Of a stretch of DNA of 64,000 nt, positions 3,393-18,468 are shown in pieces. Origin of the DNA: Mumia flava. GTDB taxonomy: Bacteria; Actinomycetota; Actinomycetes; Propionibacteriales; Nocardioidaceae. The DNA lies in the NCBI RefSeq assembly GCF_002797495.1, contig NZ_PGEZ01000002.1, forward strand, positions 124,001 to 188,000. The letters run 5' to 3'. The notes below the pieces were generated by a model, which ran no database searches, was not told the origin of the DNA, and was given only the letters and a program-made list of their open reading frames with translations. Position numbers and translations under genes: made by a program. Numbering within the stretch: position 1 is the stretch's first letter; each line of letters starts with the position of its first letter.

Positions 3393-4910
3393 TCAACGAC
3401 CGGTCAGCGCGTCGAACAGACTCTGCGCGGAGTCGTGCTGGTCGAACAGCGACCCGACGTGCTCGCGCGTCCCGCGCAGCGGCTCCATCGTCGGGATCCG
3501 CTGGAGCGACTCGCGGCCCGGCAGGTCGAAGATCACGGAGTCCCAGGAGGCCGCGGCGACGGAGTCCGGGAAGTGCGCCAGGCACTGGCCGCGGAAGTAC
3601 GCGCGCGTGTCCTCGGGCGGCTGCGTGACGGCCCGCTCGATCTCGGTGTCGCTCAGCAGCCGCTTCATCCGACCCGAGCGGACGAGCCGGTGGTAGAGCC
3701 CTCGCTCCGGGCGCAGGTCCGCGTACTGGAGGTCGACCAGATGCAGCTTGGCGTCGTCCCAGTCGAGGCCGTCGCGCTGGCGGTACGACTCCAGCAGCGA
3801 CAGCTTCGCCACCCAGTCCAGCTCGTCGCGCAGGCTCATCGGGTCGTCGCCGAGCCTGGTGAGCACCGACTCCCAGCGGTCGAGCACGTCCTTGGTCTGC
3901 CCTGCGGTGAGGTCCTCACCGTCGTGCCCCGCCTCGATGAACGCCTGCGCGCGCTCGAGGTACGCCCACTGCAGGTCCAGACCGCTGAACCGCCGCCCGT
4001 CGGCCAGCTCCACCAGCGTGGCCAACGACGGGTCGTGCGAGATCGCGTGCAGCGCGCGGACCGGCTGCGCGAGCTCGAGGCCGGACTCCAGGAACCCGGC
4101 CTCGATCATCGCGAGCACGAGCGAGGTCGTCCCGAGCTTGAGGTACGCAGCGATCTCCGACATCGACGCGTCGCCGATGATCACGTGCAGACGGCGGTAC
4201 TTCGACGGGTCGGCGTGCGGCTCGTCGCGGGTGTTGATGATCGGCCGCTTGAGCGTCGTCTCCAGCCCGACGCCGACCTCGAAGTAGTCGGCGCGCTGGC
4301 TGATCTGGAAGCCGTGCTCCGACCCGTCCTGCTGGCGACCGACCCGGCCGGCGCCGCACACGACTTGCCGGGAGACGAAGAAGGGCGTGAGGTGCTCGAC
4401 GATCGCACCGAACGGCACGTCGCGTCGCATCAGGTAGTTCTCGTGGGCGCCGTACGACGCGCCCTTGTTGTCGACGTTGTTCTTGTAGAGCAGCAGGCCC
4501 GGAGCCCCCGGGATCTGGCTCGCGAGGTCGGCGCCGCGCTGCATCACGAGCTCGCCCGCCTTCTCCCACAGCACGACGTCGCGCGGGTTCGTGCACTCCG
4601 GCGTCGAGAACTCCGGGTGGGCGTGGTCGACGTAGAGCCGGGCGCCGTTCGTCAGGATGACGTTCGCGAGACCGAGGTCCTCGTCGGTCAGCTGCGTGGG
4701 ATCGGCCCGGTCGCGGCTCAGGTCGAACCCGCGCGCGTCGCGCAGAGGGTTCTCCTCCTCGAAGTCCCAGCGGGCTCGGCGGGTCAGGCCGTTCGCGCTC
4801 GCGTACGCGTTGACGACCTGCGTGGACGCGACCATCTGGTTGGCCGTCGGCTGTCCCTTGACGGAGATGCCGTACTCGACCTCGGACCCCATCACCCGTC
4901 GTACCGTCAT
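3393..4910 (-). CDS. dop: Pup deamidase/depupylase Dop
   Basis: Dop hydrolyses the C-terminal Gln of Pup to Glu so it can be ligated, and also removes Pup from targets. It is a glutamine-synthetase-fold enzyme of 505 residues. The ATP/Mg start motif MGSEVEYGI (residues 7-15) is present, and Asp95 in [17 protein letters not shown] matches the catalytic aspartate of Dop. Dop rather than the ligase PafA is indicated by GSEVEYG, by the insert at about residues 40-80, and by [19 protein letters not shown]. It lies directly upstream of pup, as in other actinobacteria. The ATG at 4910 has no Shine-Dalgarno sequence but TAGGGT lies six bases before it. PafA is not in the window. Confidence 0.96.
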
Positions 4911-4951: not shown

Positions 4952-5473
4952 ATGATCGGCGTGGACGAGATCGTGGCGCTGTACGGGCCGGACGGCCGCC
5001 CTGCCGGGGAGGCTCCGCGCTCGCGGGTGCGGGCCGAGAACCTGCACCACGGCGCGACCGCGATCGTCGTGACGGACCCGGCCGGACGGGTCTACGTCCA
5101 CCGCCGGTCGGACACGAAGGACGTCTTCCCCGGGATGTACGACGTCTGCGCCGGCGGCGTCCTGCTCGCGGGCGAGGACCCAGGCGACGGCGCCGCGCGC
5201 GAGGTGGCCGAGGAGCTCGGCGTGATCGGCGCGGAGCTCGTGCCGGTCTTCACCAGCCGCTACACCGACGCCCACACGTCGTACGAGGCGTTCGGGTATC
5301 TCGTCGAGGGGTGGGACGGGCCGATCCGCTGGCAGCCGGAGGAGGTCGCGTGGGGCGACTGGATGCCGCTCGAGCGGGTCGTCGCGCTGCTCGACGACCC
5401 GCAGTGGCCGTGCGTGCCAGACTCCCGCGCGATCGCCGGCCCCTGGCTGCGGGAGCGCCTCGTCGGTCGCTGA
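4952..5473 (+). CDS. NUDIX hydrolase
   Basis: A 173-residue hydrolase of nucleoside-diphosphate-linked substrates. The NUDIX box is perfect at residues 69-91: G, five residues, E75, seven residues, R83-E84, then EELGV. The N-terminal segment APRSRVRAENLHHGATAIVV and VFPGMYDVCAGG place it with the YfcD/isopentenyl-diphosphate-isomerase-like group, but the substrate is not predictable. An alternative in-frame GTG at 4961 (MDEIVAL) fits relatives and has CACGAT seven bases upstream, so the mRNA may be leaderless. It is divergent from dop, and is the first of three rightward genes lying inside the otherwise leftward proteasome locus. Confidence 0.88.
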   Translation: MIGVDEIVALYGPDGRPAGEAPRSRVRAENLHHGATAIVVTDPAGRVYVHRRSDTKDVFPGMYDVCAGGVLLAGEDPGDGAAREVAEELGVIGAELVPVFTSRYTDAHTSYEAFGYLVEGWDGPIRWQPEEVAWGDWMPLERVVALLDDPQWPCVPDSRAIAGPWLRERLVGR

Positions 5474-5776
5474 GTTCAGCGCAGGCGCCTGCCGGGGAAG
5501 ACGGGGGCGGGTGAGTCGGCGTAGTAGCTGAACGAGCGAGCTGGGAACGGCGGGTCGCGCATACCGCAACCACGGCTCGCCGTGATCCCGGGTGCTACCC
5601 ACCGATCGATATCGCCGACTTGCCAGGTGCCCACGCAGTCGCTAATTTCTGTGACGCGCACCACATCTGGCGATTGGCCAGACTGTGGGCGGCCACCGAC
5701 TTGCTTCGTTCGGATCGAGCGGATTCGGCAGGCGGGCACTCCGTCGAGAGGATGGAATAGCCGTCCTCTCTTGGAG
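5474..5776. other. Gene-poor gap, possible gene remnant
   Basis: This stretch holds no convincing complete gene. GC drops here. On the minus strand about 5476-5630 can be read as a C-terminus including VGDIDRWVAPGIT and ARSFSYYADSPAPVF and ending at TGA 5478-5476, which looks more protein-like than chance. Upstream it runs into antisense of the next gene, so at most it is a truncated remnant. The rightward frame of the downstream gene is also open from 5582, but nothing there resembles a signal or a domain. Confidence 0.4.
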
Positions 5777-6625
5777 ATGAGGATCGAAGGAGTCAGATGG
5801 TGGAAGGTCGACGGATCGTCCTTGCAAGCAGTCTGTTGCGTCGCGCTGGTTGGTACCACTGCGGTGTCCCCAGCGTTGGCTGATTCGGGTTCCACACCCG
5901 GCTTCCCGAACGGGCATACCGACAAGGAATGGGCAGAACCGGCCACACTGCACGTCGAGTCGAGTGCGCCGACCGAGTCGGACACCATCTCGAGTGACGA
6001 GCCGGCGTACGACCCAGCGGAGGACGTCGTGCTGCCGGGCAGTTTCCAGAGGCCTGGTCTGCGTTCGTATGTCGAGAGCGGCGGCACCCCTGTGTACTTC
6101 GAGGCTCCGATCACCTACAGCCCACGGTCGAACGGCGGCGGCACGATGACCACAGCTGCCGCATCGGGCACGTGGTGGGACGGCGTCTGCACAAGTGGAG
6201 AGAGCCGCTACAGCGTGGTCAAGGACTATCCGCGAGCAAAGGCACACTCTCGTATGGAGCGCACCTACGCCCGCATGTACTGCGGCAAGAAGGATCGCGA
6301 GAGCATGAACCCCGTGTCGGAAGCCGCCTTCGGCATCCGGCATATCCGTGCGTACCACAAGTCCCAGTTCGCGAAGCTGGCGTCGTGGCAAGGATCGACG
6401 TGGGGTCATTGGATGCACTGGGCCATTCGGTGGGTGATGTCCGAACCCGGGAAGCGAACGGTGCAGAATGCCAATAGGTTCTGCTATCAGAAGCAGTTCA
6501 CGTTCGTTGACCTGTCGGGGAACACCGTCAAGCGGCGCGTGATCGTCATCCTCGGAAAGACGGGCGTCCGGATTATGACGTCGTTCCCCCGGAAGAGCGC
6601 CTACTGCTCGGGCGACGCGTTTTGA
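5777..6625 (+). CDS. Secreted basic protein with toxin-like C-terminal domain
   Basis: I do not recognise this 282-residue protein by name. From the ATG at 5777 it has a signal peptide (QAVCCVALVGTTAVSPALAD, cleavage near residue 35), an acidic Ser/Thr/Pro linker to about residue 130, and a basic domain of about 150 residues. That domain has four cysteines (138, 169, 236, 277), the pair R188-H189 and H194 in FGIRHIRAYHKS, and the ending VRIMTSFPRKSAYC. The pattern RHI-H-...-TsfP recalls secreted nuclease toxins of the BECR fold (EndoU/colicin-like); this is inference. The stop overlaps the next gene (TTGA). GC is about 58-62 percent in sampled lines against 73 percent nearby. The start is uncertain: GAAGGAG precedes an out-of-frame ATG at 5797, and a frameshift cannot be excluded. 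Confidence 0.6.
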   Translation: MRIEGVRWWKVDGSSLQAVCCVALVGTTAVSPALADSGSTPGFPNGHTDKEWAEPATLHVESSAPTESDTISSDEPAYDPAEDVVLPGSFQRPGLRSYVESGGTPVYFEAPITYSPRSNGGGTMTTAAASGTWWDGVCTSGESRYSVVKDYPRAKAHSRMERTYARMYCGKKDRESMNPVSEAAFGIRHIRAYHKSQFAKLASWQGSTWGHWMHWAIRWVMSEPGKRTVQNANRFCYQKQFTFVDLSGNTVKRRVIVILGKTGVRIMTSFPRKSAYCSGDAF

Positions 6626-7032
6626 GCGACTCGGGATCTGAGGGCGAACTGGCTGACCCGGATCGGTCGGTCGCACCAGCTGACGTGTTGTGGCAGGAGT
6701 TGCTGGCCGAGGTGCGTCGCTACGGCGTTGTGGACGCGATCGACGCCAACGGGTTCGATTTTCGCCAACCCGCGGAGAGCACCGGACGACGATTCCAGAT
6801 GTCTCCCGAACTCTTGCGGGATGGCTTCGTGAACGACATCGTGCGGACAGGCTCTGGAGCTGAGGTGCCTCACCTGCCGCAGTGGTTTCTCGACGAGGTC
6901 GTCGAATTCATCGGGTCAAACGAGGAACCGTACGACCATCGCTACGTGGTCCTGGCTGGAACCCGGCTCGTCCCCTCGCAGGATGGCCAGCACCCAGACT
7001 TCGGTTCGAGCGCGGCGCCGCCGTCGCGCTAG
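6622..7032 (+). CDS. Small acidic protein, candidate immunity protein
   Basis: A 136-residue protein with no family I can name. It starts at TTG 6622, which overlaps the preceding stop codon (TTGA), so it is expected to be translated by ribosomes finishing the secreted protein. It is acidic overall, has no signal peptide or membrane segment, and contains an amphipathic stretch VLWQELLAEVRRYGVVDAI and a motif LPQWFLDEVVEFIGS. A small acidic cytosolic protein coupled to a basic secreted protein is the usual arrangement of an immunity gene behind its toxin. Base composition is low-GC like its neighbour, which suggests joint transfer. The last 15 residues are low-complexity. Confidence 0.6.
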   Translation: MSDSGSEGELADPDRSVAPADVLWQELLAEVRRYGVVDAIDANGFDFRQPAESTGRRFQMSPELLRDGFVNDIVRTGSGAEVPHLPQWFLDEVVEFIGSNEEPYDHRYVVLAGTRLVPSQDGQHPDFGSSAAPPSR

Positions 7033-7086
7033 CCGCGACGGCGGCGTCTACTTGTTGCGAGCCACCCTCGGGAGTACTGGGCGTAG

Positions 7087-8847
7087 CTAGAGGTACTGAC
7101 CCGTGTTGGCGACCGTGTCGATCGACCGACCGGGCTCCGAGCCCTGCTTGCCGGAGACGAGCGTGCGGATGAACACGATCCGCTCGCCCTTCTTGCCGGA
7201 GATCCGGGCCCAGTCGTCCGGGTTCGTGGTGTTCGGGAGGTCCTCGTTCTCCTTGAACTCGTCCAGGCACGCCTGGAGCAGGTGCTGCACCCGCAGGCCG
7301 CGCTGCTGGGCGTCGAGGAAGTCCTTGATCGCCATCTTCTTCGCCCGGTCGACGATGTTCTGGATCATGGCGCCGGAGTTGAAGTCCTTGAAGTACAGGA
7401 CCTCCTTGTCGCCGTTGGCGTACGTGACCTCGAGGAAGCGGTTGTCCTCGGACTCGGCGTACATCCGCTCGACGGTCCGCTGGATCATCGCCGCCACGCA
7501 GGCGTCCTTGTCGCCGTTGAACTCCGACAGGTCGTCGGCGTGCAGCGGCAGGTTGGCCGTCAGGTACTTGCTGAAGATGTCCCGGGCGCCCTCGGCGTCG
7601 GGCCGCTCGATCTTGATCTTCACGTCCAGGCGGCCCGGGCGCAGGATCGCCGGGTCGATCATGTCCTCGCGGTTGGAGGCGCCGATCACCAGGACGTTCT
7701 CCAGGCCCTCCACGCCGTCGATCTCGCTCAGCAGCTGCGGGACGATGGTGTTCTCGACGTCGGACGACACGCCGGAGCCGCGGGTGCGGAACAGCGAGTC
7801 CATCTCGTCGAAGAACACGATCACCGGCGTGCCCTCGCTGGCCTTCTCCCGCGCCCGCTGGAACACCAGGCGGATGTGCCGCTCGGTCTCGCCGACGTAC
7901 TTGTTCAGGAGCTCGGGGCCCTTGATGTTGAGGAAGTACGAGCGGCCCTCCTCCCCCGTCTTGTCCGAGACCTTCTTCGCCAGCGAGCTCGCGACGGCCT
8001 TCGCGATCAGGGTCTTGCCGCAGCCCGGCGGGCCGTACAGGAGGACGCCCTTCGGGGGCTTGAGCTCGTGCTCGATGAAGATCTCCGGGTAGAGGTACGG
8101 GAGCTCGACCGCGTCGCGGATCGACTCGATCTGGCCCTGGAGACCACCGATGCTCAGGTAGTCGATGTCCGGGACCTCTTCGAGGATCAGCTCCTCGACC
8201 TCGCTCTTGGGCACCCGCTCGTACACGTAGCCGGCACGGGAGTCGAGCAGCAGCGAGTCGCCGGCCCGGATCTTCGTGTCGCGCAGCGAGTCGGCGATCC
8301 GGGCGATCCGCTCCTCGTCGGCGTTGCCGATCACGAGCACGCGGTCGCCGTCGGCCAGCACCTCCTTGAGCATCACGACCTCGCCGACCTGCTCGTACTC
8401 CAGGGCGGCGACGACGTTGAGGGCCTCGTTGAGGATCACCTCCTGGCCGCGCTGGAGATCCTCGACCTCGACCGTCGGGCTGACGTTGACCCGCAGCTTG
8501 CGGCCGCCGGTGAAGATGTCGACCGTGTCGTCGTCGTTGTGCTGGATGAAGGTGCCGAATCCCGTCGGCGGCTGCGCCAGCCGGTCGACCTCTTCCTTGA
8601 GGGAGACGATCTGGTCACGGGCCTCGCGGAGGGTGTCACCGAGCCGGGCGTTCTGGGCGCTGACGGCGGCGAGCCGCGACTCGGTCTCGGCGAGCCGGCG
8701 GTCGACCTCGGAGTCGGCGCCGGCGCCGGCCGTGCGACGGCGGAGGTGCTCGACCTCCGCGCGCAGGTAGTCGATCTCGGCCTGCTGCTGAAGGACGGTC
8801 TGCTCGGTCTCAGGCGGACGCCGGTCGGTCTGGTCGAAGTCGCTCAT
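7087..8847 (-). CDS. arc: Proteasome-associated ATPase ARC/Mpa
   Basis: This AAA hexamer binds pupylated proteins, unfolds them and threads them into the 20S core. The 586 residues show the family order: N-terminal coiled coil (about 14-90, heptads such as [20 protein letters not shown]) that captures Pup, two OB domains (about 95-235), then the AAA domain with Walker A GPPGCGKT (272-279), Walker B IVFFDEMD (343-350) and the pore and sensor motifs. The C-terminus is GQYL, the docking tail that inserts between PrcA subunits. GGGAGG lies before the ATG. It is usually adjacent to dop; here 2.2 kb of rightward genes separates them. Confidence 0.96.

Positions 8848-14831: not shown

Positions 14832-14835
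<4 letters not shown>
14068..14835 (-). CDS. HAD family hydrolase (beta-phosphoglucomutase-like)
   Basis: A 255-residue cytosolic phosphatase or phosphomutase. The HAD motifs are all present: LWDLDGTIVDTEP (Asp43 nucleophile, Asp45 acid/base), VTMSYRS (motif II), GKPHPEPYL (motif III Lys) and VAIEDSTTG (motif IV). A helical cap lies between motifs I and II. The first 35 residues are disordered and rich in Thr, Pro and Asp. It starts at GTG 14835, overlapping the metH stop by four bases (GTGA). HAD genes commonly follow metH in actinobacteria; the substrate is unknown. Confidence 0.9.
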
Positions 14836-18317
<3,482 letters not shown>

Positions 18318-18399
18318 GAGGCTCCTGGACGCCAGAGAAGGCGGGGACGACGGCGGTCTGCGGGACGCGACGAGTCTACGCGAGCGGACCCCCGGGACG

Positions 18400-18434
18400 C
18401 TCACGTCGTGAGACGACCAACCGCATCGTGAGAC
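18400..18434. promoter_or_regulatory. Repeated motif upstream of metH
   Basis: TCGTGAGAC occurs at 18406-18414 and 18426-18434, exactly 20 bases apart (about two helical turns). The first copy is part of the 13-bp palindrome CTCACGTCGTGAG (18400-18412). It lies 83-117 bases before the metH start, with TAGACT (read leftward, 18374-18379) as a possible -10 between. A regulator of methionine genes is plausible; its identity is unknown. Confidence 0.4.
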
Positions 18435-18468
18435 ATGGCGCACACGCGTCCGCGAGCAGGGCGGGGCG

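Follow-up and report, generated by a model that had tools for sequence, protein, structure and literature searches.

The window, a 64,000-nucleotide stretch of Mumia flava DNA, includes an actinobacterial proteasome region in which a 1.6-kb two-gene segment (5474..7086, no strand assigned) lies between genes for a NUDIX protein (4952-5473, + strand) and the proteasomal ATPase (7087-8847, - strand). A Pup-ligase family protein, Dop or PafA, is encoded at 3393-4910 (- strand), and all three of these assignments come from Pfam. According to the list of open reading frames, the first gene of the segment (5777..6625, + strand) encodes a putative toxin of 282 aa, and the second (6622..7032, + strand) encodes a putative immunity protein of 136 aa, here called the partner. 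The genes overlap by 4 nt (TTGA), with the TTG start of the partner placed within the toxin stop codon; both frames and the common TTGA are as the preliminary description of this DNA had given them. At local composition, a 282-codon open frame has a P value of ~3e-4. The two-gene unit ends in a terminator-like hairpin of 15 pairs (7014..7048, + strand), the sole hairpin in 5450-7150, for which shuffled sequence gave a mean of 1.0.

In the product of the toxin gene, a signal peptide is followed by an acidic linker and then by a C-terminal domain that we regard as a candidate BECR-like RNase. The signal peptide (residues 1-35; 5777..5881, + strand) was recognized by inspection and hydrophobicity: it starts with MRIEGVRWWK and has a hydrophobic stretch peaking at residues 18-34, followed by ALA/D, with cleavage expected after ALA. 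This export signal distinguishes the protein from the cytosolic toxins of type II toxin-antitoxin systems. The linker (residues 36-129; 5882..6163, + strand) has a charge of -9.3 and a pI of 4.25 over residues 37-129. The toxin domain (residues 130-282; 6164..6622, + strand) has a charge of +15.9, a pI of 10.2, cysteines at positions 138, 169, 236, and 277, and a candidate active site composed of H189, H194, and T268. All the parts proposed earlier, namely, a signal peptide, a linker, and a basic four-cysteine domain, are thus present in the 282-aa protein. No Pfam match of any kind, LXG and WXG domains of T7SS toxins included, was obtained at E 10 for its N-terminal half. The four relatives that have a complete domain and two cysteines only (L047, L049, L052, and L053) lack both C236 and C277, which suggests that C138 pairs with C169 and C236 with C277, and we suspect that the toxin contains these two disulfides. 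L054 fits this scheme poorly: its C236 column is occupied by a Cys, but its C277 column is not. The partner has a pI of 4.39, zero cysteines, and no strongly hydrophobic segment, and it looks cytosolic, as had been claimed for the acidic 136-residue product.

The GC content of the locus is 0.629, compared to a mean of 0.720 (sd 0.024) across segments of 1255 bases. Values as low as this occurred in 5/1255 sliding segments, with the minimum starting at ~5700, and the locus lies in the lowest-GC stretch of the window. Its earlier characterization as a low-GC insert therefore holds, and the GC counts given for three 60-base lines (61.7% at 6241, 58.3% at 6481, and 73.3% at 7621) were correct. The third codon positions follow the same trend: GC3 is 0.78 in the toxin gene and 0.75 in the partner gene versus 0.95-0.97 in the three flanking genes measured.

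In the five congeners examined, the same flanks enclose ~4.5 kb of other DNA that is alike among the five. Its open reading frames, as read in three of the five (L064, L066, and L068), encode a methionine synthase and an acetyltransferase-like protein; metH was confirmed by Pfam in L064, and the acetyltransferase was identified by reading. Since the congeners carry metH DNA at this site, the toxin pair replaces other genes rather than representing an insertion into a bare site. Although metH is absent from the site in the window, a 1203-aa methionine synthase is encoded ~8 kb beyond it (14832-18443, - strand). At E 1e-20, it is the genome's sole match to the congener metH, with 38% identity.

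The toxin domain has a patchy distribution. At the class level, it was detected in 15/394 genomes (profile search, E 0.01), and at the phylum level, a larger profile detected it in 3/396 genomes (E 0.001), with the genome of the window counted in both cases. Distant toxin domains were found across Actinomycetes, and most class-level members are, by reading, small proteins with a hydrophobic N terminus. The M. flava genome has one copy, its other match being due to chance (E 0.26). Because of the foreign GC3, the patchy occurrence, and the other DNA that occupies the site in the five congeners, lateral acquisition of the locus is supported on sequence grounds, in agreement with its earlier description as a transferred module.

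Relatives of the toxin occur in Nocardioides bruguierae (L038, 77% identity), Pimelobacter simplex (L039, 53-56%), and N. malaquae (L040, 55%), and each is followed by a relative of the 136-aa partner. A search for paired homologues had been suggested as a check; both members were found together at four loci, the window included. Between the window and L038, the toxin domain is 77% identical (117/152), with dN 0.17 and dS 2.1, and the partner is 42% identical (54/129), with dN 0.55 and dS 2.0. As judged from these comparisons, in which dS is saturated, both genes are under constraint, dN being well below dS. The signal peptide and linker (the aligned part of residues 1-129) are poorly conserved, with 33% identity (37/112).

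A total of 23 toxin loci (22 plus L075) were read, in which L039 and L031 are the same place. Reading showed a broken or cut toxin frame at L005, L037, L040, L075, L004, and L008 and, at L033, a domain frame without an in-frame signal peptide; these sequences were used as open pieces. A partner belonging to one of three families lies directly downstream of the toxin at 11 of the 23 loci, the window included. Family A is found at four toxin loci (the window, L038, L039, and L040), and its five members, which include a partner without toxin (L026), recover one another in leave-one-out profile searches at E 1.7e-10 to 8.3e-26, compared to an E of only 0.048 when the window and L039 partners are compared directly. 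Family C is found at five toxin loci (L047, L049, L050, L052, and L075; leave-one-out E ≤0.0007), and family B at two (L003 and L035; blastp E 3e-5, leave-one-out E 0.02-0.04). No homology among the three families was found, either between A and B or C by profile-profile comparison or between B and C. The 15 distinct partners measured are all acidic (pI 4.05-5.43).

The partner start is offset from the toxin stop by -4 in the window, -1 in L038, and -1 in L039, and the same tight spacing is seen at L033 (-4) and L005 (-1), where, as at L074, the stop-overlapping ORF is unassigned to families A, B, and C. The partner is uncertain at L008 and L004, and the genes downstream at L053 and L054 look unrelated. 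At L045, L046, and L048 there is no suitably placed ORF, L044 has an implausible ORF only, and L037 is truncated. Since 543/1074 control stops also have a downstream ORF of at least 75 aa in the same interval, the argument for a pair rests on the homology of the partners and not on the presence of an ORF.

The nature of the toxin domain was addressed with profile and structure searches. Neither the toxin nor the partner scores above the cutoff of any Pfam or NCBIfam model, and the window proteins have no PHROG match. When 19 members were compared to Pfam at E 1, three families were listed, none of them convincing and none a clade of the EndoU, Ntox35, or Ntox50 type; we take the named BECR clades (EndoU, Ntox35, Ntox50, and others) to be present in Pfam. 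PBECR1 was matched by one member at E 0.069, below the cutoff. Against PDB, the early profile A1 (9 rows) matched two DNA polymerase chains only (E 2.5) and did not find 7M5F, which is the structure of CdiA-CT/CdiI from Serratia marcescens BWH57, a BECR-fold toxin of contact-dependent inhibition (CDI) with its immunity protein. Profile A8 (19 rows) had 7M5F as its sole match at E ≤10 (E 0.074), as did A14 (12 rows; E 0.0064 over 39 residues). A14, which overlaps A8, is made of distant relatives with the window's subfamily left out; that subfamily forms A10, and the two were joined by hhalign with a probability of 99.4% (E 1.4e-21). These results point to a modest sequence relation between the toxin domain and a solved BECR enzyme.

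The aligned stretch contains an L-x-x-G...G-x-x-H-I-x3-H block and covers the proposed active-site histidines. In the published sections on 7M5F drawn on here (PMC8616854), the toxin has the BECR fold, and its candidate active site consists of H47, E51, H52, and R89. Positions 67, 71, and 72 of the 7M5F chain are H, E, and H in the aligned stretch and have the spacing of H47, E51, and H52 at an offset of 20; by this renumbering, we infer that H47 and H52 are equivalent to H189 and H194 of the M. flava toxin. With gaps set aside, conservation in A8 is high for G186 (16/16), H189 (16/16), H194 (16/17), W209 (18/18), P271 (18/19), and T268 (17/19, with S in one member and N in one). According to the portion of Zhang et al. 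2012 (PMC3482391) consulted, S/T is conserved in strand four of many BECR enzymes, and Ntox35 has two N-terminal histidines. A catalytic-type pattern of N-terminal histidines plus a C-terminal S/T is likewise present in the toxin family.

It could be argued that the toxin/immunity logic holds but that the domain, rather than being a BECR RNase, is another kind of small basic toxin, such as a DNase or a protein of unrelated fold. The missing Pfam, NCBIfam, and PHROG assignments and the failure of A1 to find 7M5F would fit such a view, as would the AlphaFold model of the toxin domain (four sequences), which is weak (pLDDT 57) and with which fold searches were uninformative. However, 7M5F was the sole PDB match of two overlapping later profiles, it spans the candidate histidines, and the order of elements in the weak model (hairpin, strand, helix, helix, and four strands) is compatible with BECR. 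We therefore consider a non-BECR toxin unlikely. The BECR-like assignment, offered at first as a guess from the sequence, has gained a link to a solved enzyme through A8 and A14, but the model is too weak to prove the fold. A model of the partner was better than that of the toxin, and a search with it for a solved relative gave no clear match.

The resemblance to the CdiA-CT/CdiI pair extends to charge: the toxin of 7M5F is electropositive and its immunity protein has a negatively charged patch, as stated in the parts of PMC8616854 drawn on here, and the M. flava toxin is basic and its partner acidic. The two systems differ in other respects. CdiA is a large exoprotein of CDI (CdiA/CdiB/CdiI) with a two-domain CT, whereas the M. 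flava toxin, at 282 aa, has a signal peptide, a short linker, and four cysteines, is not a large TpsA-type exoprotein, and has no Pfam domain above cutoff. The immediate neighbors are the NUDIX and proteasomal ATPase genes in place of a CdiB transporter, and, unlike CdiI, the partner has no detected PDB relative. Among the BECR clades in the consulted portion of Zhang et al. 2012 (EndoU, Ntox35, Tox-Barnase, and others; PMC3482391), Ntox35 resembles the toxin family in its two N-terminal histidines and last-strand S/T, although 0/19 members of the toxin family reach a Pfam cutoff.

The same domain was found behind a signal peptide and linker (window, L038, and L039) and on a repeat trunk (L003), where it forms the C terminus of a 688-aa repeat protein. 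This trunk was detected in 4/49 genomes of the genus of L003 (E 1e-25, with L003's own genome counted), and in the other three, the C termini differ, by reading, from the toxin domain. Trunks with exchanged C termini are polymorphic-toxin behavior as described in the sections of Zhang et al. 2012 (PMC3482391) used here. Two of the other C termini on L003-type trunks, in L079 (3301-3705) and L078 (721-1230, - strand), had no Pfam match at E 0.001. Judging by a motif, the L079 C terminus presumably reads as a small phospholipase A2.

Pfam identified mobile elements beside several members: L003 has a transposase HTH, L038 a DDE transposase, L008 IstB, L033 an ISL3 transposase, and L040 a phage-integrase domain. 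At the last of these, in N. malaquae (L040 3699-5164), the broken toxin gene and its partner are flanked by an integrase-like piece, recognized by reading without a Pfam match, and by the phage-integrase C-terminal domain, assigned by Pfam. Genome G331 has two toxin copies, one without an in-frame signal peptide (L033) and one cut short beside an IS21-like sequence identified by reading (L037); by reading, both are decaying.

Barnase is a small secreted RNase, and its inhibitor barstar is an acidic intracellular protein. The M. flava pair might similarly be a secreted housekeeping or scavenging ribonuclease and an intracellular inhibitor, with antagonism not its main use. A small Sec-secreted enzyme beside an acidic inhibitor-like neighbor would suit this role, and barnase is placed in the same superfamily in the consulted portion of Zhang et al. 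2012 (PMC3482391). There were, however, zero matches to Barstar among the 11 partners scanned, and several unrelated partner families occur where barnase has barstar. The patchy occurrence at the class and phylum levels fits conflict better, and the foreign GC3, the fusion to a trunk with exchanged C termini, and the mobile-element neighbors likewise argue against a housekeeping enzyme, making this explanation improbable.

The locus is probably an antagonism cassette of two genes that was acquired laterally and that encodes a Sec-exported BECR RNase toxin and its immunity protein. The recurrence of the pair, the exchange of trunks, and the link to a BECR sequence largely bear out the earlier reading of it as an antagonism module. 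We propose that the toxin would be exported by Sec, one of the export routes listed for polymorphic toxins in the sections of Zhang et al. 2012 (PMC3482391) used here, and that its signal peptide would then be removed. The acidic linker would carry or shield the basic domain, which, probably braced by disulfides, would act as a metal-independent BECR RNase using H189, H194, and T268. After entering a neighboring actinomycete, the toxin would cut RNA, probably tRNA or rRNA. Translational coupling would cause the partner to be made in step with the toxin, and the acidic cytosolic partner would bind the basic domain and protect the producer and its kin. A toxin directed at eukaryotic predators or hosts is very unlikely: export by signal peptide alone is silent on the target, but a partner that is tightly coupled, looks cytosolic, and changes fast is what one would expect for toxins reentering bacterial kin. 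Within the toxin family, L053 is acidic (pI 4.06), so some members may not be toxins.

More tentatively, the family may represent uncatalogued protein bacteriocins of actinomycetes: stand-alone, Sec-secreted, disulfide-braced BECR ribonucleases that do not require a dedicated delivery machine, are disseminated as two-gene cassettes, and repeatedly swap unrelated acidic immunity partners while retaining the toxin domain. We advance this wider idea as a speculation that may well prove wrong. To our knowledge, protein-based antagonism in the phylum is little mapped. No description of this toxin family was found in the titles and abstract openings of open-licence literature, and no Pfam or NCBIfam family describes it, consistent with the earlier statement that it was undescribed. 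The locus would thus add a new RNase-like toxin family and three putative immunity families without detectable mutual relation. If the toxin works from a signal peptide alone, how would a disulfide-bonded RNase cross the envelope of a Gram-positive neighbor? Having several unrelated partners for a single toxin fold would, in addition, make it possible to compare directly the ways in which immunity is reinvented.

Two further loci bear on the partners. A phylum-level member of the toxin family (L074 1255-2279, E 6e-8) has its own overlapping 137-aa ORF, which gave no convincing match to a partner family and one stray blastp match to L026 (E 0.043). In L026 (1186-1854), from a congener of the window organism, the family A relative makes up the C-terminal portion of an ORF that is longer; no toxin was recognized beside it within 3.3 kb, and it is possibly an orphan immunity gene.
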